NCBI RefSeq assembly: GCF_003112575.1
Contig: NZ_BEWC01000005.1
Span: forward strand, 186,001-250,000
Origin: Streptomyces ardesiacus
GTDB lineage: Bacteria > Actinomycetota > Actinomycetes > Streptomycetales > Streptomycetaceae
Reading direction: 5' to 3'
DNA length: 64,000 nt
The notes beneath the pieces are model-generated. The model saw only the letters and a program-made list of their open reading frames with translations, was not told the origin of the DNA and made no database searches. Both the position numbers and the translations under genes were made by a program. This document shows, piece after piece, positions 1 through 10,609 of this stretch; the stretch's first letter is position 1, and each line of letters starts with the position of its first letter.

Positions 1-2
1 TC

Positions 3-476
3 GTACTGCCCACCAACGGCGACAGGGCAACCATTCCCGGGTTCCAGGTACAGCCCGAGTCCTTCGCATGGTTCAGCATCGTGCTGGCCCGTACGGAAGC
101 AGCCACACTCACCGCCTTCACCGGCGGTGGCAAACCCACCGCCCGGTACCTGACCAAGGAACAAGGGCGACGGCACTTCCAGCACGACACCCATGCCAGC
201 ACGGCCAGGCTGCGAGACGCGGAGCACCGCATCCACGACATCGACTTCGTCGGCACCGATCACATCTACCGCCTCAACGGCACCCGGGTAGAAGCCTTCT
301 CCGGTCTGGAGAGAACCCTCTACACGCATCTCCACCGCGGACACGTCAACGAGTACCGTCGCCAGGTACACGGCCTGCGAGGACAGTGGCCGCCGCACAG
401 CACGGCGAAGTACTGGAACACGGTGTCGGTCCGAGCCGACGGGACAGTACTGGCTATCCGCCTCCGGGACGAGTGA
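3..476 (+). CDS. hypothetical protein, 5'-truncated by window edge
   Basis: The frame is open from base 3 to a TGA at 474-476, so the N-terminus lies left of the window; the first internal ATG/GTG codons (for example GTG 81) are probably not the start. The visible 157 residues show no membrane segment or signal peptide and no family I recognise. The middle part (ARLRDAEHRIHDIDFVG) and the His/Arg/Tyr-rich end look like an ordinary soluble protein. It lies inside the low-GC island ending at 9245 and runs in the same direction as the glycosylase cassette that follows after a 250-base gap. Function unknown; that it is coding is fairly likely from length and codon use. Confidence 0.55.
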   Translation, partial: VLPTNGDRATIPGFQVQPESFAWFSIVLARTEAATLTAFTGGGKPTARYLTKEQGRRHFQHDTHASTARLRDAEHRIHDIDFVGTDHIYRLNGTRVEAFSGLERTLYTHLHRGHVNEYRRQVHGLRGQWPPHSTAKYWNTVSVRADGTVLAIRLRDE

Positions 477-726
477 CCCAGGAGCCCGTGAAAGCTCCAG
501 ATCCGCGCCCGCCGCCTGCCGGGCGGAGGTGCACACAGCCGCGCAAGCGCTGGCGAAGAGAGTCCGTGCAGCTGAGCCGCCTCCTGATTGCGGCGACAAC
601 AGCCGAATCCGTCCGGCAGTGCCTTACGCAGAGCTTCCCGCAGATGGATCCAGCAGGAGCAGCCCACAGCAAGCAGGAGTACCAGAGTCGCCATCCTGCC
701 CGCCCATAGCCGGGCAGGATGGCTGC
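477..726. other. intergenic gap with strong hairpin
   Basis: No convincing gene in any frame: the possible translations are Pro/Ser/Arg-rich and lack the codon bias of the neighbours. The only structure seen is the perfect hairpin at 690-723, described separately. Confidence 0.5.
690..723 (+). promoter_or_regulatory. 13-bp perfect hairpin over a candidate Shine-Dalgarno site
   Basis: Arms GCCATCCTGCCCG (690-702) and CGGGCAGGATGGC (711-723) are perfectly complementary around an 8-base loop. The 3' arm contains AGGA (716-719), eight bases before the ATG at 727 that fits the start of the glycosylase gene. It can be read either as a rho-independent-like terminator of the upstream gene (no T-run follows) or as a structure that hides the ribosome binding site of the next gene. 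Confidence 0.6.
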
Positions 727-881
727 ATGACACCCACCGACCTGTCTCGCCTGCAGTTGCCACACGCGTGCCGTAGGATCTTGCCCAGCAGCGGTCAGAG
801 CGGATCGACGATCACACCATTGCCATACCTGCCCACTGGTGGAACTCCGAGGTAGCCGCCGCTCACCTGCCTGGCGCTCCC
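727..881 (+). other. probable displaced 5' end of the glycosylase gene (frameshift near 776)
   Basis: ATG 727 opens MTPTDLSRLQLPHACRR in frame 1. The main glycosylase frame is open from 777 and reads DLAQQRSERIDDHTIAIPAH before reaching GTG 882. Joining the two at 775-777 (sequence CCGTAGGATC) by adding one base gives one smooth 270-residue protein, whereas GTG 882 has no ribosome binding site. A one-base deletion, a sequencing error or a programmed shift would all explain this. The join is my inference. Confidence 0.5.
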
Positions 882-1538
882 GTGACCGGCCCAGGCACCA
901 CGCATCTCAGTCGGGGCGACCTCTTCGCGCATGCAGCCAGCCTCGATCTGGATTCGGAAGAGGAGCTGCTGCGATTCCTGTGGCGGATCCTTGCCTGGGG
1001 CAGCGGCATGAAGCTCCGCCACAACCGCAAACGCATCCGAGCTGTGGCGGATGGCCTGCCATCGGCTACGGCGGCTCTTCGCCAGGCCCTACTGGCGGCC
1101 CACGAAGATCCGGGGCAGGCTTACGAAGCTCTGCGCCCAAGAGGCCGCAACGCCATCGCACACCTGGGCCCGGCCTTCTCGACCAAGGTCCTGTATTTCG
1201 TCGGCGGCGGCGCCCTGGACCACCCGTGCTCGATCTTGGACTCCCGTGTCGCCAAGACGCTCAGAACGGCCTGCCAGTGGGACTCGCTCGGCAGCAGCGA
1301 ATGGCCGACCAGTACCTACGCCCGGTACTGCGCACTGCTGCAGCGCTGGTCCCAGGAGGAAAGTCAGCGGCTCGGGCGCCGCATCGGCGCCGATGAGATC
1401 GAGCGCTGGCTGTTCGCGCCGGATCCCGAGGATTCGGCCTCTTTGGGATCCCAGAGCAGAATCCGGCTCCCCTATCAACCCACCCGCCTGTCAGTGCCTG
1501 CCGCTACCGTCGACGGGGACAGTCCCGCTCGACCGTGA
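882..1538 (+). CDS. 8-oxoguanine DNA glycosylase OGG-fold protein, possibly 5'-frameshifted
   Basis: Frame from GTG 882 gives 218 residues. The hallmark is at residues 95-127, LGPAFSTKVLYF...ILDSRVAKTL, which aligns with the helix-hairpin-helix catalytic region of OGG1/HhH-GPD glycosylases: Lys102 sits where the Schiff-base lysine is expected and Asp120 where the catalytic aspartate is. Bacterial proteins of this type are annotated as OGG-fold proteins and would excise a modified base from DNA. The start is doubtful: coding sense continues upstream to 777 in this frame and then to ATG 727 in another. The stop overlaps the next gene's GTG by four bases (GTGA, 1535-1538), implying translational coupling. 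Base substrate cannot be read from sequence; repair and anti-phage roles are both possible. Confidence 0.72.
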   Translation: MTGPGTTHLSRGDLFAHAASLDLDSEEELLRFLWRILAWGSGMKLRHNRKRIRAVADGLPSATAALRQALLAAHEDPGQAYEALRPRGRNAIAHLGPAFSTKVLYFVGGGALDHPCSILDSRVAKTLRTACQWDSLGSSEWPTSTYARYCALLQRWSQEESQRLGRRIGADEIERWLFAPDPEDSASLGSQSRIRLPYQPTRLSVPAATVDGDSPARP

Positions 1539-2395
1539 GTGGTGAGCAAGACATGGCAAACCGAGTGGCCGAGGGCGGCGCAGACCGTTACAAGGTGGCA
1601 CGATCCTCTGAAACGCCCCGTAGGAAGCGGAGCCAGTGGCTAGCGTTTGGCCTTATGACTGATGCCGCACCCGAACGGGTGGAGCTTCTGATGTCCCTGA
1701 ACCGTCTGGAGTTACGTTTCGACTCCGCCGCATCTCTTGTCGCATCGGACGCCCACGACGATCCAGCGACGCTGGAATGGGGCTGCCGTGCCGTCCTGCC
1801 CCTGTGGGAACCGGACGACGAGGAGGCCGTGGCCGACAACGCCCGCCTCCTCGGCCCGGGCGTATCACTGGCCCAGACGTTCCAGGGCCAGCGCCAGGAG
1901 TTGACGATCCTCTCCATGTCCGGGCTCACGCTGGACCTGTGGCGCATCGGCCACACCTACGCGTCGCTGGACTCGCGCGACGCCGACTACGAACACTTCG
2001 CCCCGCTTTTCGACAAGTCCGGCGATCTCGGCCTCCACAGCGACCTGGAAGAGTGCCTGGTGAGCGGCACCCACGTCGTCATCATCGATCGGGCGCGGAT
2101 CGCGCCGGCCTGGCGTGGCCTGGGCGGCGTCGGCCGGTTGTTGATCGGTCGCATGCTCCGGTGGGTGGCCAGCCAGGCGGCGCTCGTGGCGACGCATCCG
2201 TACCCCATCGACATCCCCGTCGACGAATGGGACGACAGAACACGCGAGACACGCGAGAAGACCGTCGTCCAACGGACCTGGCAATCCTTGGGATTCGAGT
2301 CCTTCCGCGAGGACCTGTGGGTGATGCGACCGCACTTGAGTGCCCACGACGATGCCGTCGAGCGCTTGGAGGCGGCCTTCGGCCGGTACCTCTGA
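1535..2395 (+). CDS. GNAT-like hypothetical protein with TTA codon
   Basis: 286 residues from GTG 1535, which overlaps the preceding stop by four bases; ATG 1553 (residue 7) and ATG 1655 (residue 41) are alternative starts, and the first 50 residues look poorly constrained. Residues 178-212 (GTHVVIIDRARIAPAWRGLGGVGRLLI) resemble strand 4 and the acetyl-CoA loop of GNAT acetyltransferases, and WQSLGF (249-254) resembles the usual C-terminal GNAT motif. The R/Q-x-x-G-x-G/A loop is imperfect, so activity is uncertain. Leu60 is encoded by TTA (1712-1714), the codon read by the bldA tRNA in Streptomyces, which would limit expression to late growth. It is coupled to the glycosylase and followed 43 bases later by a zinc-finger gene. 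Confidence 0.7.
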   Translation: MSGEQDMANRVAEGGADRYKVARSSETPRRKRSQWLAFGLMTDAAPERVELLMSLNRLELRFDSAASLVASDAHDDPATLEWGCRAVLPLWEPDDEEAVADNARLLGPGVSLAQTFQGQRQELTILSMSGLTLDLWRIGHTYASLDSRDADYEHFAPLFDKSGDLGLHSDLEECLVSGTHVVIIDRARIAPAWRGLGGVGRLLIGRMLRWVASQAALVATHPYPIDIPVDEWDDRTRETREKTVVQRTWQSLGFESFREDLWVMRPHLSAHDDAVERLEAAFGRYL

Positions 2396-2438
2396 GCCCC
2401 CACCCGATCAGCAAACGAGAGGACGCACCGGTACCGCG

Positions 2439-2936
2439 ATGCGCGAGTTCACCAACCACAAGGCACAGCACACGCTCGGCGTTCTGCGCGCCTTCCACCT
2501 GGAGACCTTGAACTTCTCCGGAACGCATCCTGAGGCGACGCTGGCTGACTTCGAGCGCCACTTGCGTCAGCGGGTCGACGCCATGGAGGCGGAACTGGAG
2601 GCAGGTGAGCAAGCAGCCCAGGCGGCCATCGTCACCAAGCCGCTGTCCGGCCCCCTCGCCGATCCCGAACGCCAGCAAGCGTTCCGTCACCTACAAGACT
2701 CGAGGGCACCGGCGACAGGGCCCGAGAGGGAAGCCTGGTGGAAGGAGCGCAGGGCGGTGCTCGACGAGATCAGGGCGCAGGGGCTGGCGGAGGCCCTTGA
2801 CTGGGACTGCCGTGCCTGCGGCGCCCCGGTTGGGATCGCTTGCCGTACGGGCGGCGGAAGGCCCAGGAAGCAGTCGCACTTCCTCCGGGCCACCGACGCC
2901 GAAGCGCCCTACAACCACGCGTACGGGCTGCGCTGA
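2439..2936 (+). CDS. phage-type zinc-finger domain protein
   Basis: 165 residues from ATG 2439, preceded by GAGAGGA at 2417-2423; the frame stays open upstream but that part lacks coding character. Residues 15-125 are helical and charged (DFERHLRQRVDAMEAELEAG), and the C-terminus carries Cys124-x2-Cys127-x7-Cys135 and His147 in CRACGAPVGIACRTGGG...H, a small DNA-binding zinc finger common in Streptomyces phages and integrative elements. It probably binds DNA, perhaps as a regulator of the element. It closes the plus-strand cassette of glycosylase and GNAT-like genes and converges on the XRE-ImmA gene, 186 bases away, with no terminator that I can identify between them. Confidence 0.72.
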   Translation: MREFTNHKAQHTLGVLRAFHLETLNFSGTHPEATLADFERHLRQRVDAMEAELEAGEQAAQAAIVTKPLSGPLADPERQQAFRHLQDSRAPATGPEREAWWKERRAVLDEIRAQGLAEALDWDCRACGAPVGIACRTGGGRPRKQSHFLRATDAEAPYNHAYGLR

Positions 2937-3122
2937 AAGCCGGGTCTGAGGTCGGGACGATAGACGGCGTCTCGGCCTTCCGACTTCCCAGGTCGTAGGA
3001 GCGAAAACCCTGCGGCAGAGCGGCGGTCCACAGATCCTGACCCGCGCCCTTCGGCAATGGGACTGGCAGGCCAGCTGGCAGCCGCTGGGGGTGCGGCGCA
3101 AGTCCCTTCCCCCAGCGGCTCG

Positions 3123-4289
3123 TCAGACAAGTTTCAGCACAGGGCGGCTGTCCGGCATCCCTAGCAGCTCGCGCACCCTCGCCGGCTTCCAAGCAAGTTC
3201 CGCGGCAAGCGCGCGGATCGTCAGTCCGGTGTCCTGTTCCGCCAGCTCAAATGCCTTGCGAAGCATCACCGGCTGTTCCCCGGGGTATCCGCGGACCGAT
3301 TCCGGGGCGAAGCCCGGCTGCCCGCTGAGACCCCGAAGTCGCTGGTACGCGCGGCTGATCGTCGCGTCTGAGACGAGCCCGAGTTCCCGGTACCGGTAGA
3401 TGAGCGAACTCACCGACACGCCCCAGGTCTGGGACAGGCCGGCCAGCTGTGCCAGGTCCACCCGCCGCGACAGCAGAGGAAGGATCGATTTCTGAGGGGT
3501 GAGGAACTCGGCGGCGAAAGCATCTGCCTCCCGCTCCAAACGGCTGTCACCAGTGGCACCTGCGTGGAGGACCAGGTGCCCAAGCTCGTGGGCCGCGCTG
3601 AAGCGATATCGGTAGACATCATCAGCGCGATTGGGTGTGAGCACGATGACAGGACGCAGTAGGCCGGAACTGGAGAAGGCGTCAACCTTGGATGCCGCCT
3701 CGTCGGCCTCTACAGGTGCCACCACGATGAGGCCGTGCGACTCCATCCGGCGCGCCAGATGGCGCACCGGTCCGTCACCCAGTCTCCAGTGGCGCCGGAG
3801 CGCTCGCGCAGCACCCACGGGATCGTCAGGTAGGTCGATCCCGGGATACACCTCGCCACCCGTGAAGCCCGGAAGGTTCACGGGTGGAAGCTGCACCCGC
3901 TTCTCGAGGGCATGAGTGAGCTCCCATACCTGTTCGACGAAGCCGAGGGCTCGCTCGCGCTGGGCCCCAGAGGTGGAACGCAAAGCCCGGAAGTGCGCCA
4001 TGGAGGTATCGACCTTGCCCATCGGCCGGCCGGCGACGAAGAACTGAATCGGCACGTCCAACACTTCAGCGAGCCGAGGGATCAGTTCAGGGCGAGGGCG
4101 GCTGGTGCCTGCCTCGTACTGACCTACAGCAGCTGCCGACACACCAATGCCGTCCGCGACCTCACGCTTCGTGAGCCCGGCGAGACGTCGCGCCTGTGTC
4201 AGTCGGGGTGCGTGGAAGCCGTCCCAGACCGCTCTCGGCGACGTACCGCCCAGGCTCGTCCCTGGAAGTAGTGGTTGCTCAATCTTCAT
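3123..4289 (-). CDS. XRE-family HTH protein fused to ImmA/IrrE metallopeptidase
   Basis: 388 residues. Residues 28-83 form an XRE/Cro helix-turn-helix (LTKREVADGIGVSAAAVGQY), followed by an M78/ImmA-IrrE peptidase with zinc motif HELGH at 234-238 and the downstream glutamate in EREADAFAAEFL (Glu254). Such proteins typically repress their own operon and cleave a regulator or partner under stress, as ImmA does for ImmR and IrrE for DdrO; COG2856-type proteins also act as the antitoxin half of some toxin-antitoxin modules. The first 11 bases overlap the end of the upstream 267-residue gene (4279-4289), so the two are co-translated. The C-terminal 100 residues contain further predicted helices. 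Confidence 0.9.
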   Translation of the reverse strand: MKIEQPLLPGTSLGGTSPRAVWDGFHAPRLTQARRLAGLTKREVADGIGVSAAAVGQYEAGTSRPRPELIPRLAEVLDVPIQFFVAGRPMGKVDTSMAHFRALRSTSGAQRERALGFVEQVWELTHALEKRVQLPPVNLPGFTGGEVYPGIDLPDDPVGAARALRRHWRLGDGPVRHLARRMESHGLIVVAPVEADEAASKVDAFSSSGLLRPVIVLTPNRADDVYRYRFSAAHELGHLVLHAGATGDSRLEREADAFAAEFLTPQKSILPLLSRRVDLAQLAGLSQTWGVSVSSLIYRYRELGLVSDATISRAYQRLRGLSGQPGFAPESVRGYPGEQPVMLRKAFELAEQDTGLTIRALAAELAWKPARVRELLGMPDSRPVLKLV

Positions 4290-5082
4290 TGCCCTCAGCA
4301 GCGCTCACGAACGCGTCGTACTCGATCTCGCTCTGCGGCGGAGTTCCCGTGGCACGGGCCGCCTCACTGCGCGTGGAAAGCGCCACCTCGGGAAGATCAC
4401 CAGAGGCGAAGTTATCCCCTGTACGCTGATCCGGCACGGCGTAGAGACGGCTCTCGGTGCCGGCCGTGAGGAGAGACTTCTCGGTCACCCACTGAAGGTT
4501 TCCGGCCTCGTCCAGGAGATTAGCCTGTCCCCACCAGGCTCGTTGCAGGCCACTCATGTTCATCTCGTACGGGATGAGGACCAGGCTGAGGCGCGGGTCC
4601 CGCTCAGCCAGATCAGCCAGGGATCGTCGGAGAACCAGCTCCTCGCCCTCCACCTTCAACAACGGATCGGCGACCCAGCGTGGCGTCGGCGCGTCAGTGA
4701 GCGCGAACAGCTCCCGCATCACGCGCGACAGCTTCTTCGGCCACTTGTCACCCGGCTCGAAGCCGTCGACCGACTCCACGCGGTAGGGACAGAGGAGGGT
4801 GTTGTGCACCAGCACGAGTTCGTAGAAGGTGCCCGGCTTGATCAGCTCAGTGCCCGGGATGCCGAGGTCAAGCACATGCTCGGCGATCCGGTCGTACTGA
4901 TTGGTCATGCGAGCCGCTCCCGCGGCGAACTTGTGCTTGGACCGACCGGCCACATGTGACTCGAGCATCGCCGACTCGGTATCGAGAAGCCCCATCTGGA
5001 TCGCCAGTCGCAGACCGGCGACATCTTCCCCAAAGCGAGCACTGGCCCAGGCCGGCATCGGCCCGTCGACGTTCGCGTCCAC
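4279..5082 (-). CDS. hypothetical protein paired with XRE-ImmA protease
   Basis: 267 residues from GTG 5082, preceded by GGAG with a six-base spacer. No family recognised, no signal peptide or transmembrane segment. The protein is Leu/Glu-rich and soluble (FGEDVAGLRLAIQMGLLDTE, then KPGTFYELVLVHNTLLCPYR and LADLAERDPRLSLVLIPYEM), and ends in an acidic tail EIEYDAFVSAAEGNED. It is the first gene of a two-gene operon, overlapping the XRE-ImmA gene by 11 bases. By analogy with toxin/XRE-peptidase pairs it may be the effector or substrate controlled by the protease; this is inference from position only. Confidence 0.75.
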   Translation of the reverse strand: MDANVDGPMPAWASARFGEDVAGLRLAIQMGLLDTESAMLESHVAGRSKHKFAAGAARMTNQYDRIAEHVLDLGIPGTELIKPGTFYELVLVHNTLLCPYRVESVDGFEPGDKWPKKLSRVMRELFALTDAPTPRWVADPLLKVEGEELVLRRSLADLAERDPRLSLVLIPYEMNMSGLQRAWWGQANLLDEAGNLQWVTEKSLLTAGTESRLYAVPDQRTGDNFASGDLPEVALSTRSEAARATGTPPQSEIEYDAFVSAAEGNED

Positions 5083-5738
5083 GCATCACTCCGATCCACG
5101 ACAGCTTGCGTTACTCCGAGGATGCTACCGCACGAACTTTAGTTGATCTAGATTTTCTTGCATCTCTGCTACTTCTCACCGATCTCCCAGTGGCAAGTTG
5201 CCGCACCGATCGCCTGCGATCGCGCAAGTCGTGCCTCCCCCGCCGTGTGGGGCAGGAAGGAGCTGGCGCACCAATCGCGCCGAGCTCGTAGCCGAGGGTG
5301 GCCGCGGTAGCGGGCCTGCCGCCCAGCCTCATGTCGTCTTCTCGGCGGAGAGCCGCCATCAACGGGTGCACCCGCAATGCCTGGTTCGGAGGAAGCGACA
5401 CCGAGCCCAAGCAGGACAGTAAGGGTCGACTCAGGATGCGGCGCGTGAGGGAACGACTCTGCGTGGAGAACCTGGGGGAGGCCGCTGCCGAGAACGTCGC
5501 CTTGGAGATGAGCCCGTCGGCGAGGGCAACAATCCGGACGCATTCGATGCCCTGACCGCTGGCGGCATCCCACCCAAGTCCTTCGTGGACTTTCCCCTTA
5601 CTCTCGACCTGGAGACCGCTCGTCAGGGGACGATCGTGCACCAGTAAACCGAATCCGGCAGGCCGTGCGCGGAGGAACAGACGATCTCCTGGACATAGGC
5701 CGTAGCGAGCCCAGGGCTCCTCGGCTGCGGGTTTGGTG
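5083..5738. other. gap without a supportable gene
   Basis: Several overlapping frames are open on both strands (for example minus 5169-5573) but none has a start with a ribosome binding site, a recognisable domain or consistent codon bias. A minus-strand stretch around 5400-5650 has moderate coding character and could be a decayed gene. Apart from the palindromes at 5135-5153 I see nothing definite. Confidence 0.4.
5135..5153. promoter_or_regulatory. AT-rich palindromes upstream of the XRE-ImmA operon
   Basis: AACT-TT-AGTT (5135-5144) and the palindrome ATCTAGAT (5146-5153) form an unusually AT-rich patch about 50 bases before the GTG at 5082. A self-binding XRE regulator is the likely reader; they could also be promoter elements. 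Confidence 0.35.
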
Positions 5739-6173
5739 TCAGCGCACGGAGCGGAGGTAGCGCTGCACGGTTCGCCTGGAGCAACCAAGCGCTTGCGCGA
5801 TGTCGTTGACTCTCCATCCGTCTCGGCCCAGACGGATGACCGTGTGAGCACGGTCCGGCAAGGGCGTTGCCCCATTGGGAAGCCGGAGCCTTGCCGCGAT
5901 GCGGTCGCGGTCTGCCGGGCCGAGGCCGCCGTACCAACCGTGACGGGTTTCCGGGTCCTCCGCGCGCAACGCGAGGGCGAGGCACTCCAAGCGCCCCCCG
6001 CAGCCAACGCATACGGCCAAGGGGCCCTCGGCGGGCCGCTCCCCGTCCTCCGGATGATAGAGATTCACGTCCTCGTCCCTGCATGCCGCAGGGACTGGGT
6101 TCCGGTGCTGAGGCGATTGGATCAGATCGCGAAGCTCCTGTTCGCGGCCGACGAGAAAGTGCAGGCTGTCCAT
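5739..6173 (-). CDS. WhiB-like Fe-S regulator with C-terminal helix-turn-helix
   Basis: 144 residues from ATG 6173, which has GGAG six bases upstream; the frame continues further 5' but without coding character. Cys31, Cys55, Cys58 and Cys64 (C-x23-C-x2-C-x5-C) are the four [4Fe-4S] ligands of the Wbl family, and GWYGG at 79-83 is the usual G[V/I/W]WGG turn. The C-terminal 35 residues differ from the basic tail of classical WhiB proteins: DGWRVNDIAQALGCSRRTVQ looks like a complete helix-turn-helix of the resolvase or HTH-23 type. Wbl proteins act with RNA polymerase sigma as transcription factors. Inside an island it may regulate element genes. Confidence 0.85.
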   Translation of the reverse strand: MDSLHFLVGREQELRDLIQSPQHRNPVPAACRDEDVNLYHPEDGERPAEGPLAVCVGCGGRLECLALALRAEDPETRHGWYGGLGPADRDRIAARLRLPNGATPLPDRAHTVIRLGRDGWRVNDIAQALGCSRRTVQRYLRSVR

Positions 6174-6467
6174 CGGGGGCTCCAGCCCGTGGCCATGTCC
6201 GGTCCACAGTGAATAGCCAGGGTGAGCTGGGAACTGCCCGGCGCACCCACTTGATGTCTTCCGGGTCACGCCCGGTGTGACGGCAAGCGGCAGCGGATTG
6301 CGGTTTCGGCCCCGAGGTGTACCGGCTTCCCAAGCTAAAGCCCGGAAAGCCGGCGTTGCCGCCCTCGCCCTGGTCGGGTGGGTGGGCCTCACCGTTCATC
6401 CGCGTCGCGGCTCCCGGCGCGCGGCCGGGTTTCTATGCCTATCCGGAGAACTCCGGGGGCGAGCGAT

Positions 6468-8486
6468 TCAAACGACCTCGTCCTGAGGCGGCGAATCTTC
6501 ATCGGTCGACTGACCGTCGAACTCGTCGTCCGATTCCTCGGCTTCCTCGTCGTCACGGTCCGCATCGAGGTCGTACGGGTCCTCGGCGATAATCCCGTGT
6601 CGCTGGACACTCCGCTGTTGCCAGACAGGCAGCTTGAATAGGACGTCCTGCAGGACGTTCCGCCACGCCTCACAGTCGGCTCGGTCGGCGCCCAGCGAAT
6701 CGACAGCACGGGTCCCATCGTCGGACCTGACCGCCTCCACGACCTTGACCGCACCCTCGACCGCCTGGATCGAAGTGGCCAGGTCATGCAGAGCATTCCC
6801 GAGAATCTCAGCCGCGTTCCGAGGAGCCGGTGTGGGTGATGGACCTTCGCCGGCGGGTGGGAAGGTTCGGCGGAGGTCCGCGTCGGTGACGAGGATGTCG
6901 CGGCCGTCGTCGTTCTGAGTGACCCGTCCTGTCTCGTCCACCTTGCGGGTCCTGCGCCCCGCCGCAGAGTCGAGGAGCGTCTGCTTCAGCTGGTGCACAC
7001 CGTGCTGGGTACTGCGCATACGGTCGATGACCTCGCCTGGGTGCCGCCGATCGGGTTGATCGTTGTTGCTTGAGCCACGGTCACCCGTGAGCTGGCCGTT
7101 GATCACCAGGGGATAGGCACTGCGGGCCGCGAGTTCCCGGGTTGCCGCGCCTGGCTCCCCCTTTGTCACCTCCTCAAGTGCGGCTTGGGCCAGCTCCTCC
7201 GTCCCACGGAAAGTGGCCTCCCAGTCCTTGGCCAGCTCACCCGGGAAGGCCGACTTCAGGTACTTCCGCATCCGTTCCCGCCTGCGGGAGTCCTCTTCCG
7301 AAACCGAGCGCATGACCAGAGAGGAAGCTACGTCGAGTAGCAGCTTGGTGGTGATGTTCTTGCGGGTGCTCTGTCCGGTGATGGCGACCCGCACAGCAGC
7401 GTGGATCGTCTGATTACGCTCGGCGAAGAGCCGGACAATTGCCGCCGCCCGGACGGACGGGTCGTCGTTGAATCCGGCCGCCATCGCCTGGTCGGGGGTC
7501 AGGGCACCGCGTAGCCAGTCGGCCTTGGCAGGAGTGATCAGTTTCCGTCGTTCGATCTCGTCCACCACTGCGTCGGCGAGGGCCTCGTTCTCTGCGGCTT
7601 CACCCCACGGCTTCGGGGAGTCGACGTGCCGAAGTGCGACCAACGACTTCACCGCGACTCCGAAGTCAGCGGTGGTGCCGTCATGCGGCTCGAAACCGAC
7701 CAGCAGAAGCGCCGGAAGCCGTTCGCAACGCACGGTGACCGCCACCTCGGGGTCAACCTGTGCCGGGTCGCCTGCGGTCGTGATCGCCGCGTTGAGCTTG
7801 CGGATGTGGGAACGCAGCTTCGCCGTGTCCCGGAGGTACGGAACGTCGGCGGACCTGAGGTCGAGCAGGTCGTGGGCGCACGTCACTCGGCTCGACCCCT
7901 CGACCGTGACCGGAACCGTTACCCCGGGTGTGCTGTCCTCGTGTTGAAAAGCCGTCGCGGCCAGCCACACCTCTGTCATCACTCCCTGGTGACGGAGGGA
8001 CTCGCGCCAATCGTTGTGGTCAAGCACGTACTCTTTGGCCAGTTGTGCCGCCCACGCTAGGTGTTCCTGGTTCGCGAGCCTCTGCACGAGTTCCGGGCGA
8101 CTCCCTGACGCCGCGACGGGCTCGGCCATCGGACGGAAGCGCGTGCTCTCGCCAGTGCCGATCAGGTTCGAGGCCGGGTGCCGGCGCGACGGACCGATCC
8201 GCGGGTTTCGCGGGTCTGGGATGATATACCGCGCCCATACGTCAGCCCGGATGGCGAGGATCACGCCGCCGGGCACCCGCAGCCGCTCTGGGGACTCTGC
8301 CGCTCGGCGGGCAGCAGAGGGGTCGACGACAGCCTGCGCGAGGGCCAATGCGGCGGGCTCGCCCATGGTGAAGTGCTCGATGAGTTTGTCGGCAAGCTTC
8401 CGTGCTGCGGTCGCCAATGCAGGCAGGGGCAGCGCTTCGACAGGGCGGGGCAGTACGGTCTCGCCCGCGCCGGATGATGGCTCCAT
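6468..8486 (-). CDS. large ParB-like domain protein with acidic tail
   Basis: 672 residues from ATG 8486 (GGAG nine bases upstream); ATG 8519 and TTG 8552 are longer alternatives. Residues 85-100 read YIIPDPRNPR and residues 160-210 read WRESLRHQGVM...VTVEGSSRVTCAHDLLDL, which resemble the NPR and GERR boxes of ParB/sulfiredoxin-fold or DGQHR-type domains. The middle is helical with no recognised family. The last 40 residues are almost all Asp/Glu/Ser (DADRDDEEAEESDDEFDG), as in DNA-mimic or charge-tailed proteins. No HTH of chromosomal ParB is apparent and no parA neighbour exists in the window, so plasmid partition is not assured. It could be a DNA-processing protein of the element. Confidence 0.65.
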   Translation of the reverse strand: MEPSSGAGETVLPRPVEALPLPALATAARKLADKLIEHFTMGEPAALALAQAVVDPSAARRAAESPERLRVPGGVILAIRADVWARYIIPDPRNPRIGPSRRHPASNLIGTGESTRFRPMAEPVAASGSRPELVQRLANQEHLAWAAQLAKEYVLDHNDWRESLRHQGVMTEVWLAATAFQHEDSTPGVTVPVTVEGSSRVTCAHDLLDLRSADVPYLRDTAKLRSHIRKLNAAITTAGDPAQVDPEVAVTVRCERLPALLLVGFEPHDGTTADFGVAVKSLVALRHVDSPKPWGEAAENEALADAVVDEIERRKLITPAKADWLRGALTPDQAMAAGFNDDPSVRAAAIVRLFAERNQTIHAAVRVAITGQSTRKNITTKLLLDVASSLVMRSVSEEDSRRRERMRKYLKSAFPGELAKDWEATFRGTEELAQAALEEVTKGEPGAATRELAARSAYPLVINGQLTGDRGSSNNDQPDRRHPGEVIDRMRSTQHGVHQLKQTLLDSAAGRRTRKVDETGRVTQNDDGRDILVTDADLRRTFPPAGEGPSPTPAPRNAAEILGNALHDLATSIQAVEGAVKVVEAVRSDDGTRAVDSLGADRADCEAWRNVLQDVLFKLPVWQQRSVQRHGIIAEDPYDLDADRDDEEAEESDDEFDGQSTDEDSPPQDEVV

Positions 8487-9203
8487 CAGGTGTTCTCCGA
8501 TCTTCGTCCCGGGGTCCATCCAGGCACGCACCTGGACGCCGTGGTCGTCCAAGGAGATCGGTCACGCTGTTTCCCGTTCTCCCCCTCAGCTCGCCCGGGC
8601 AAGACCCGATGTGTCCGAGACGGCATCAGCACGCTCGACCGCACTTCCGAGACGTACCGGCTTCGACTGCCGGCGTTGCCGCCCACCGCCCACATGGCGA
8701 AGGTGAGGAGCTTGAGCCCGCTGATGTGACTGCCCAAAAAACGCTAGCAGCAGGGGTGACACCCCCTCAGAATTTCTCGTTTCCATACCGGTTGGGCGCA
8801 CAATTGTGGTAGGTGGTTTTCGCGGGAACAGGGCTTCTTTGCCGCGGCTCATGACGACAGCGAGGTCCCACCGAGTGGTGTGGTCTTGCGGATCCCGCCG
8901 GCCCGGATGCCCTGTAGCCGATCGGCGCGGCCGAGCGACCATGGCAGCTTTGTGAGCCGGCCAGAGCGGCGCCCTCAATGGTGATCTGAGCCAGTTGGTC
9001 GAGTGCCATGGCGCCAAGTCTTCGTGTGAGCTGATACGGCGGGTCAGACGGACTCGGCGGCCGTTGGCTGATGCCCCGCTGGGAGCCACCTGGGAGCCGA
9101 CCCGCTCCCCGAGCCTCTTCAAGACCACCCGAGACCACCGCACCCTAACGCCCTGACCAGGAAAAACAGCAAACAAGCCGGTGTCGATCACGCCCGAACC
9201 TCA
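8487..9203. other. island edge, no supportable gene
   Basis: Long minus-strand frames exist (8586-9191, 8767-9138) but they overlap each other and show no domain, no clear start and mixed codon bias. An integrase gene is often next to such an attachment site; I find no tyrosine- or serine-recombinase motif here. The piece may be decayed element sequence. Confidence 0.45.
8735..8765 (-). terminator. candidate terminator, minus strand
   Basis: On the minus strand GGGG-TGTCA-CCCC (8753-8765) is followed, after about 12 bases, by six T residues (8735-8740). It would end a transcript coming from 8800-9200, although no gene can be supported there. Confidence 0.35.
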
Positions 9204-9245
9204 TTCGGGACGAAGAGGTCGTGGGTTCAAATCCCGCCACCCCGA
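9204..9245 (+). other. tRNA-Pro(CGG) 3' fragment: attachment site at island end
   Basis: The 42 bases match the 3' part of a proline tRNA: anticodon loop TTCGGGA (9204-9210, anticodon CGG), stem CGAAG, variable loop AGGTC, T arm GTGGG-TTCAAAT-CCCGC (9221-9237), acceptor strand CACCCCG and discriminator A (9245). The bases before 9204 cannot pair as the 5' anticodon stem, so the tRNA is not complete. This is what is left at the far end of an element inserted at a tRNA 3' end; pSAM2-like elements are known to use tRNA-Pro. The intact tRNA should be left of the window. Confidence 0.85.
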
Positions 9246-9263
9246 CAGAGACAGCAGGTCAAG

Positions 9264-9296
9264 GGCCTGATCCTCAGTGAGGATCGGGTCCTTTCT
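9264..9296 (+). terminator. terminator following the tRNA-Pro fragment
   Basis: GATCCTC-AGT-GAGGATC (9269-9285), extended by partial G/C pairing and followed by CCTTTCTGTGT. It looks like the original chromosomal tRNA-Pro terminator, retained to the right of the attachment site. Confidence 0.65.
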
Positions 9297-9358
9297 GTGT
9301 CTCCGGGTATTCTCCGTCGGCCAAAGGGACCACCAGCCGACGGAGAGCGGGGAGAGAT

Positions 9359-9991
9359 GTGACCCTTCGACGGCAGCTCAGGAAGCTCTTGCGCGAGGTG
9401 GGAGAGGGCGGTCGGACCGGCAGGGGCCCAGGGTCGCCGGGCGCACCGGGGGCGTCCTTCACGACCGAGGTCCCGTGGCCGTCGTTGTGGAAGTTCGCGC
9501 AGTTCGCCTACGTCGCCGAGCAGTATGGATACCGCTACTCGGGCCTGGACCCGGAGCTGCGGGATTCCGATACCCCGTTCTTCGTCTTCCGGGCGCTGCC
9601 GGACGCGCGTGAGCGGGCCGCGGTGACGAGGGCGCGGTTTCCCGGCGCCCTCGCAGGTGGCCGGCTGCCGGGTATGCGGGCCTGGCCCGTGCCCGTGCTG
9701 ACGTTGCCGGAGGCACGGGGCGAGGTGAGGCTGTTGCACGCCCGGATCGCCTTCGACTACTTCGGTGCGCTGGGGCGGCAGCGTCTGCGTCCGTGGCTCG
9801 TCGGGATTCCGGTGGTACTGCTGTTCTTTCTGCTGGTGAACGGCGAACTGCACGTGAGAGGACTGACTGTCGCGGCCGGTGCCGCCGCGGCGCTGTTCCT
9901 GGTTCTGGCCGCTTCCCGGATCTTCGTGCGGCGTCGCCTGGCGACACACCAGCGGCTGCTCGAGCGGTCTGGTGTCCGTTGGCCCCCGTGA
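9359..9991 (+). CDS. two-TM membrane protein, unknown function
   Basis: 210 residues from GTG 9359 with GGGGAGAG just upstream. A Gly-rich N-terminus (20-35) precedes a soluble region of about 100 residues (WKFAQFAYVAEQYGYRYSG), then two hydrophobic helices at about 145-161 and 168-188 and a basic end. No family recognised. It is the first chromosomal gene after the attachment site and is followed in the same direction by a SLATT-like two-TM protein, so the pair may work together in the membrane. Confidence 0.7.
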   Translation: MTLRRQLRKLLREVGEGGRTGRGPGSPGAPGASFTTEVPWPSLWKFAQFAYVAEQYGYRYSGLDPELRDSDTPFFVFRALPDARERAAVTRARFPGALAGGRLPGMRAWPVPVLTLPEARGEVRLLHARIAFDYFGALGRQRLRPWLVGIPVVLLFFLLVNGELHVRGLTVAAGAAAALFLVLAASRIFVRRRLATHQRLLERSGVRWPP

Positions 9992-10093
9992 CCGGGACCT
10001 GAGGTGGTGGATGCTGCCGCGGCTAGGATCCGGGGCCTGAGGCGGCGGACCGGTGAGGAGCAACAAGCGGGCGAGCAGCAGAAGTTCACCGGT

Positions 10094-10609
10094 ATGCGGC
10101 CGATGGAACCGCCCCCGGCCGGCGCGGACGCCCTCGGAGTGACCACCCACTACCTGCATCACTTCCGCAAGGAATACACGCGCACACGCGAGCTGATGAA
10201 GAAGAAGGCCCGGCGGACCACCGTGGGCATCGCAGCCCTCAACGGGCTCATCGCCGTGCTCGGTGTGGCGGTCGCAGCCTGGCGGGACTACGCCGCCTGG
10301 CTCGGGTTGGCGAGCACGGCCGTGGCCGGCGTCGTCAGTGTGCTCTCGGCGTGGAGCGGCCTCATGCGCCACCACGAACTGTGGCAGCAGCGGAGCCTGA
10401 TACTCGCCGAACTCCAGCGCATCATAAGGAATGTGGAGCGTCGGGAGGCCTCGGGCGACGACCGGCAGGTCATCGCGCGGGAAGCGATGGAACTGCTCGA
10501 CACGACGCTGAGCCAGGACGCCGGCAACTGGGGCAGTCTGAGCCGGACACCCCTGGCCGCAGTCCAGTACCAGCCCTTCCAGCCGCCCGGCGAGCGTGCG
10601 CCGGAATGA
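10094..10609 (+). CDS. SLATT/DUF4231-like two-TM protein
   Basis: 171 residues from ATG 10094; GTG 10004 or 10007 would add about 30 poorly conserved residues and the choice is uncertain. The pattern HHFRKEYTRTRELMKKKAR, two adjacent hydrophobic helices (43-63 and 67-87), then HHELWQQRSLILAELQRII matches the DUF4231/SLATT group. SLATT domains were described in genome surveys as membrane effectors next to nucleotide-second-messenger (SMODS) or SLOG genes. No such synthase is visible here; the only partner is the upstream two-TM protein. Confidence 0.75.
   Translation: MRPMEPPPAGADALGVTTHYLHHFRKEYTRTRELMKKKARRTTVGIAALNGLIAVLGVAVAAWRDYAAWLGLASTAVAGVVSVLSAWSGLMRHHELWQQRSLILAELQRIIRNVERREASGDDRQVIAREAMELLDTTLSQDAGNWGSLSRTPLAAVQYQPFQPPGERAPE

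Follow-up and report, generated by a model that had tools for sequence, protein, structure and literature searches.

A giant ParB/sulfiredoxin-fold protein in a Streptomyces tRNA-Pro island: family, partner genes and a possible part in defence or inter-element conflict

ParB/sulfiredoxin (Srx) domains carried by mobile elements are described, in the parts of the literature on which we draw, as NTPase or DNase modules of conflict systems, with Osa, GmrS and DndB as examples (PMC5512222, PMC4619093, PMC10853773). Osa of plasmid pSa is presented there as a ParB/Srx ATPase and DNase that acts in conflict between plasmids (PMC5512222, PMC4619093). The excerpted text of a survey of orphan ParB-CTPase fold proteins reports that 17 of 28 purified proteins bound no NTP, and that those which did bind a nucleotide lost this ability when the GxxR arginine was replaced (PMC12704722). 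SNIPE is a GIY-YIG nuclease, in the excerpted account of which ParB serves merely as a marker (PMC13190303). Our search of the open-licence literature returned no published account of the protein family considered below or of a pair formed by a ParB-fold protein and a GIY-YIG protein.

The protein that we compare with these systems is encoded in a stretch of 64,000 nucleotides of Streptomyces ardesiacus DNA, referred to here as the window. The open reading frame of 672 residues which a first-pass annotation of this DNA had placed at 6468-8486 is present exactly there, encoded on the minus strand; the opposite strand is interrupted by many stops. The ORF listing also offers an alternative start at TTG 8552, which would give 694 residues; we favour ATG 8486 because the frame of relatives shifts just upstream of it, because it is common to close relatives and because GGAG stands 8 nt before it. 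Two conserved boxes were expected within residues 85-210 and both are found inside this range. Box I, NPR, covers residues 94-96 (8199..8207, minus strand), and box II, corresponding to the GxxR phosphate motif, covers residues 196-200 (7887..7901, minus strand) and actually reads EGSSR, not the GERR-like box that had been announced.

To characterize the fold, the whole protein (hereafter, the giant) was modelled with AlphaFold2 from a 30-row alignment (pLDDT 83.9), and residues 60-300 (7587..8309, minus strand) were also modelled alone (pLDDT 85.9). When the latter model was compared with known structures by VIA-align, 385 chains were aligned, and the 18 that reached Z>=2 belong to 12 PDB entries, all of which are ParB, KorB, Noc, Spo0J or sulfiredoxin. 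The best match was Myxococcus xanthus ParB-CTPgammaS, with Z 7.2 over 93 residues at 2.9 A, followed by Caulobacter crescentus ParB (6.7), KorB (6.0), Noc (5.5) and Srx (5.0). The full-length model returned mostly long-helix matches from the PDB, together with one ParB chain (Caulobacter ParB, Z 5.5). It should be considered that all Z scores for residues 60-300 stay under 8, that Foldseek gave no match at E<=0.001 for either the full model or residues 60-300, that the full model found nothing among viral structures at E<=0.001, and that a search of PDB sequences with the giant returned a single match at E 0.48. Alignment to ParB by hhalign pairs EGSSR with GERR, with E 2e-4 for one comparison and a probability of 47%. 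Since the Z scores are below 8 and Foldseek was not significant, the case for the fold rests on three points: every structure that reaches Z>=2 belongs to this superfamily, the two boxes follow each other as in ParB, and EGSSR pairs with GERR. The first-pass annotation had named fold prediction as the test on which its proposal of a ParB/sulfiredoxin-type domain should stand or fall, and this prediction gave only ParB/Srx-type matches at Z>=2. That residues 60-300 carry the nucleotide-pocket fold of ParB and sulfiredoxin is thus well supported by the model.

Conservation within the family is concentrated on few positions. N94, R96 and R200 are invariant in a 19-row alignment, and R96, N158, R200 and G496 remain invariant in the 30- and 32-row alignments, where identity falls to 18%. 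Of 32 rows, 28 contain [DE]Gx[STC]R; the remaining four (L003, L061, L040 and L063) form one branch and keep only the arginine.

The protein had been described at first pass as not a standard partition protein, and as one with no parA beside it; both statements hold. PF02195 gave no match at the giant gene at E<=1 in 10 of 10 genomes, in each of which ordinary ParB was found elsewhere, and it matched none of the 19 family members to which it was applied, so that a canonical ParB was rejected as a candidate. ENxxR, the third box of ParB, occurs in 0 of 32 rows. None of the eight neighbouring ORFs of the window that were scanned with Pfam encodes ParA; the Mesorhizobium member of the family (L002) has a ParA gene 5.5 kb away. 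The giant therefore resembles ParB, KorB and Noc in its domain fold, in the order of its NPR and GxxR boxes and in its best structural matches, and differs from them in escaping PF02195, in lacking ENxxR and a parA in the window, in its long unassigned helical part and in its length of 672 residues. As a separate observation, an 835-codon frame (L115, G003 C3:440769) matches PF02195 at 1.4e-6 and contains the same DGSSR motif; judged by its sequence, it could be a bridge between ParB and the giant family.

Comparison with the other members of the superfamily gives a similar picture of partial likeness. GmrSD and SspE, in which a DUF262 ParB-like NTPase is joined to an HNH nuclease, have in common with the giant the combination of a ParB-type domain with a nuclease and a D-G-x-x-R motif; the giant, however, is without DUF262 and DUF1524, its motif reads DGSSR or EGSSR instead of DGQQR, and its putative nuclease is a separate GIY-YIG-like protein. 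Membership of GmrS/DUF262 was rejected, as no DUF262 profile match was obtained and the DGQQR motif is missing. DndB/DGQHR proteins likewise belong to the ParB/Srx superfamily and have a DGxxR-type motif, but membership was rejected here as well, as no Pfam or NCBIfam profile matched and the motif is EGSSR or DGSSR, not DGQHR; no Dnd protein was found among the window neighbours scanned. The orphan proteins of the survey, as its excerpted text describes them, resemble the giant in being likewise orphan, linked to mobile elements and fused to lineage-specific parts (PMC12704722). According to the same text PF02195 was the search profile of the survey; this profile fails to detect the giant family, which adds to the ParB-CTPase fold a branch that such a survey would miss. 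More generally, the giant gave nothing above cut-off in Pfam, with two sub-cut-off matches at chance level, and was unmatched in PADLOC, NCBIfam and PHROGs; giants from four other branches were also unmatched in PADLOC. The giant belongs to a family that has no profile in the libraries searched.

Beyond the two boxes, the protein was said to be without a recognised family and to finish in a strongly acidic end, and this description was borne out. Residues 275-630 (6597..7664, minus strand), a region of about 350 residues which is helical according to DSSP of the model, are without a recognised family, and a structure search over them returned long-helix matches only; no fold is assigned to this region, nor with it any counterpart of the HTH and C-terminal dimerisation domains of canonical ParB. 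The tail, residues 633-672 (6471..6590, minus strand), is predicted to be disordered, and Asp and Glu make up 20 of the last 40 residues of the protein as compared to 86 of the first 630. This tail is mostly confined to the window's branch and its nearest kin.

Our family set comprises 42 distinct proteins, each with an uninterrupted reading frame, mainly from Streptomyces but also including Mycobacterium and a Mesorhizobium plasmid. Repeat entries of one gene, L011 (cut by a contig end), G768 (broken), G1114 (split), partial matches and same-genus profile matches for which no locus was returned were excluded. In a single-sequence search, relatives were found in 14 of 246 same-genus genomes, while a search of the phylum gave 2 of 396 genomes, the second being a weak partial match; a profile search reached 51 of 392 same-genus genomes, with many of the weaker matches partial, and 10 of 394 genomes of the class, in 4 of 137 genera. 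The window's own genome is included in each of these four counts. Relatives lie at 11 loci of named genomes, among them a copy of Mycobacterium kyorinense that is 66% identical. A relative with 44% identity is carried, next to an integrase and a relaxase, by a Mesorhizobium plasmid that has transfer genes. A distant relative occurs on a Streptomyces linear plasmid. Separately, an 8.1-Mb contig (G151 C1; L027, L028, L040) was seen to carry two identical distant giants, one near each end at a distance of 22 kb, placed as in terminal inverted repeats, and three adjoining gene clusters are common to these copies and the plasmid locus L003. A phage origin was rejected, as 50,697 phage records contained no match at E<=1; viral contigs, scanned three times at a depth that reaches close relatives only, contained no relative either.

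The window's copy lies on an island of 40 kb whose ends are marked by a tRNA-Pro sequence. The 42-bp 3' end of tRNA-Pro(CGG) at window 9204..9245 (plus strand; contig 195204-195245) recurs without mismatch at contig 155052-155093, the opposite end of the island 40 kb away, where the intact tRNA-Pro stands, and we consider it the att site. The giant starts 0.7 kb inside one island end. GC content is about 66% in window 1-10000 and 70-77% beyond. The island carries a tyrosine recombinase, with PF14659 above its cut-off and PF00589 just below, as well as a DUF317 (SPDY) gene. One further island gene, itself recognised as a relaxase in neither of two profile scans, one of them with PF03432, is labelled relaxase-like because it clusters with a G213 gene that this profile recognises.

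The same address was found for some relatives but not for most. We checked 28 further genome handles for the tRNA-Pro repeat, of which G633 and G730 share coordinates and seem to be one strain. Exact tRNA-Pro copies enclose the giant in G631, G632, G213 and G640, and a single copy lies 1.1 kb (G218) and 3.4 kb (G637) from it, so that 6 of 28 place the giant in or beside a tRNA-Pro island. In G742 a copy is found on the same contig as the giant, 21 kb away; the remaining handles have no tRNA-Pro link or have their copies on other contigs. It therefore follows from this check that tRNA-Pro is a recurrent but not the sole address. Fixed chromosomal neighbours are common to L010 and L014 and, likewise, to L038 and L039. 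Relaxase linkage is not general, as PF03432 was matched within 30 kb of the giant solely in G213 and G058 among 16 genomes, and an integrase was near the giant in some genomes, though not in general, among the matches listed, in a scan below whose limit G000's own island integrase scored. We also considered the giant as a sharp-ended mobile unit, since a shared block of 3.5 kb seemed to stop at window 5733; this was rejected. As L004, L005, L007 and L012 share sequence beyond this point, the apparent edge reflects a break within the copy of the window, and the other end is the tRNA-Pro att. A degenerate tRNA-Pro 3' end, with 8 of 42 positions mismatched, was observed at L004 12909-12950 and L012 9508-9549, just past the giant and its WhiB-HTH neighbour (see below), as if these two genes had once been a separate insert in both loci.

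Defence-related genes surround several of the copies. An HTH and M78-protease protein at 3123..4289 (minus strand) resembles RmrA, the antitoxin of RosmerTA (PADLOC RmrA 1.1e-89, with PF06114 and PF01381). It is overlapped by an ORF of 267 residues at 4279..5082 (minus strand) without a match in four libraries, which is a candidate toxin and possibly a new one of the RmrT type. The excerpted source on RosmerTA states that the system has antiphage activity and that its toxins are diverse (PMC10440598). PADLOC, which was run on chosen and not random neighbours at nine loci, identified DruE- and DrmMI-like genes in L004, type I R-M parts beside the giant in L005, L007, L032 and L033, and Wadjet JetD/JetC/JetB at L012 9665-16511, directly beyond the giant module and the degenerate tRNA-Pro end. 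L037 contains a type I methyltransferase fragment, and L006 gave a weak match only. The tRNA-Pro island site of Streptomyces is thus marked as one at which RosmerTA-, Druantia-, type I R-M- and Wadjet-like genes are seen. Of 22 genomes, 6 have an N6-methyltransferase (PF02384) at most 10 kb from the giant, whereas uniform placement would predict 0.18 (P 2e-8, or roughly P 8e-4 if the six are treated as three lineages). As this test had no control gene, part of the excess may reflect a general crowding of accessory genes.

The genes adjoining the giant are the second source of evidence on function. At 14 of 42 loci, which include deep branches, the giant is followed on the same strand by a small GIY-YIG-like ORF, the domain of which starts between -70 and +140 nt relative to the giant's stop; in L003 and L061 the two ORFs overlap by 4 nt. 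Alignment of the partners shows Y, YxG, R, H, W and E to be invariant in 7 of 7 copies. When six partners were scanned with PF01541, three gave E 0.017, 0.081 and 0.24 and three gave no match, and a seventh partner gave 1.9e-4 with 22.1 bits as compared to a cut-off of 22.6, so that all partners scanned remain below the Pfam cut-off. Alignment of the partner by hhalign to eight GIY-YIG domains from these genomes, seven of which we take to be UvrC-like by their length and likeness, gave 81%. A profile search of the PDB with the partner did not return GIY-YIG structures. In a six-frame PF01541 scan of 11 genomes we obtained 12 strong matches, one per genome plus one, and 6 weak matches, of which 5 adjoin the giant and one lies elsewhere. 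The GIY-YIG-like partner is present in 10 of these 11 genomes, and the profile detected it in 5 of them. Giants with this partner are found in four separate branches of a 32-row tree which has several long branches and an unsure deep order, and the pairing looks old for this reason. A gene pair of a ParB-fold and a GIY-YIG-like protein is also a concrete operon whose possible role in defence against phages or plasmids can be put to the test.

In the window's branch the GIY-YIG-like nuclease gene is lacking, and a WhiB-like protein of about 144 residues with a helix-turn-helix is found instead at 5739..6173 (minus strand; PF02467 9.8e-9, PF13384 2.1e-9), passing PF02467 with 36.1 bits as compared to a cut-off of 23.6. 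Such a gene lies downstream at 10 of 42 loci (the window, L004, L005, L007, L010, L012, L013 from Mycobacterium, L014, L031 and L093 from another family), and a WhiB protein lies upstream of the giant in L034. None was found after the giant in L006, L008 or L009. DUF3800 is encoded upstream of the giant in L071 (1e-8), L098 (9e-7) and, weakly, L096 (0.005); it was also suspected by eye at L038 and L039, where Pfam did not confirm it. Downstream flanks are short (0.2-1.5 kb) in 19 of 42 loci, and absences in these mean little.

Taken together, we propose that the giant is an NTP-switched ParB-fold sensor or loader whose partners are exchangeable and which serves in defence or in conflict between elements, a reading to which we assign a probability of roughly 0.5. 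We arrive at it because the GxxR arginine is kept in all aligned members, because a nuclease-like partner occurs in deep branches, because part of the family is carried on elements and because defence genes are among the neighbours. Of the three roles suggested at first pass, a conflict or nuclease setting is likely, given the GIY-YIG-like partner in relatives and the defence neighbours, the DndB/DGQHR membership put forward with the DNA-modification sensor is not supported, as no profile matched, and no finding points to anti-restriction in particular. According to the proposed mechanism, the ParB-fold domain would bind NTP and work as a switch or sensor on DNA, and in most deep branches the giant would license or position its partner nuclease against incoming DNA, whether of a phage, a plasmid or a competing element. 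The window's branch would have lost the nuclease gene and gained the WhiB/HTH regulator in its place; here the giant might act by its own ParB-type activity, as is reported for Osa, or control the defence genes of the island. With a WhiB-like regulator where the nuclease would be expected, the odds for the window's copy shift towards regulation. A narrower version can be proposed tentatively, being plausible but rather less than probable: a two-gene anti-invader system in which an NTP-gated ParB-fold sensor loads on incoming DNA without ParA and directs an exchangeable partner, ancestrally GIY-YIG and elsewhere DUF3800, with one branch having swapped its nuclease for a regulator of the WhiB type; there the sensor would control a tRNA-Pro defence island rather than cut DNA. 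The fixed chromosomal places of some members (L010/L014 and L038/L039), unlike those of roaming cargo, should be counted against defence cargo, and the 17 of 28 purified ParB-fold proteins that bound no NTP in the survey (PMC12704722) also weigh against the proposal.

The main rival to a role in defence or conflict is that the giant is a clamp or regulator of its own element, i.e., an orphan ParB-type DNA clamp or repressor resembling KorB, Noc or ParT which would bind DNA of the island, keep or regulate the element together with the WhiB-like/HTH co-regulator and have no part in killing invaders. We consider this possible, if doubtful. It is favoured by the ranking of the structural matches, with CTP-bound ParB first and KorB and Noc after it, by the WhiB-HTH partner at 10 of 42 loci and by the position of the giant, which lies 0.7 kb from an island end in the window and, in 6 of the 28 additional handles, inside or next to a tRNA-Pro island. 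It is also favoured by a long conserved untranslated leader of about 250 nt that precedes the giant (8487..8740, minus strand), the conservation of which in close relatives is about that of the coding region and which can also be aligned in Mycobacterium and in another family. Searching upstream of the window's giant for a palindromic site of the ParB type revealed just one 10-nt palindrome, however, and such a site was rejected; the GIY-YIG-like and DUF3800 partners suit a nuclease system better, and many members lie off any element recognised in this analysis. A structured RNA was also considered for the leader and rejected: although 11 pairs of the consensus fold show changes on both sides, the window's leader showed no gain in folding over shuffled sequences (z 0.17). 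The leader produced no Rfam match near the gathering score and no codon pattern.

A second alternative, which we find unlikely, is that the ParB-type pocket is itself the nuclease or NTPase, as for Osa and as proposed for GmrS, and that the giant is a one-protein weapon against rival elements with accessory partners. The Osa precedent (PMC5512222, PMC4619093, as excerpted) speaks for it, as does carriage near integrase and relaxase on the Mesorhizobium plasmid and in tRNA-Pro islands. Compared by description only, Osa and the giant are indeed alike in superfamily and in being carried on transferable elements, but they differ in size, in the extra helical region and in partner genes. Osa is a small protein, to which the giant adds about 400 residues, and a nuclease-like gene lies beside 14 of 42 giants; both points speak against this alternative. 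That the giant is cargo with an enzymatic function, metabolic or other, built on the ParB/Srx fold as in SerK or Srx, is very improbable: the superfamily does include such enzymes (PMC12704722, in its excerpted text) and Srx is among the fold matches, but the window's EGSSR motif is without the catalytic Cys of Srx, and defence genes were identified when neighbours were scanned, both in the window and at the chosen loci.

Several other genes on or near the island of the window were observed. An OGG-like DNA glycosylase (PF21790, 7e-51) is encoded on the island at window 882-1538 (plus strand). Outside the window, the same island contains caspase-like peptidase, RES-domain and sub-threshold Macro-like genes (G000 contig C5 157011-158873 and 161768-164217). 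Just outside the island end, at window 10004-10609 (plus strand), lies a gene for a SLATT-like protein with two transmembrane segments (PF18181, 6.7e-6).
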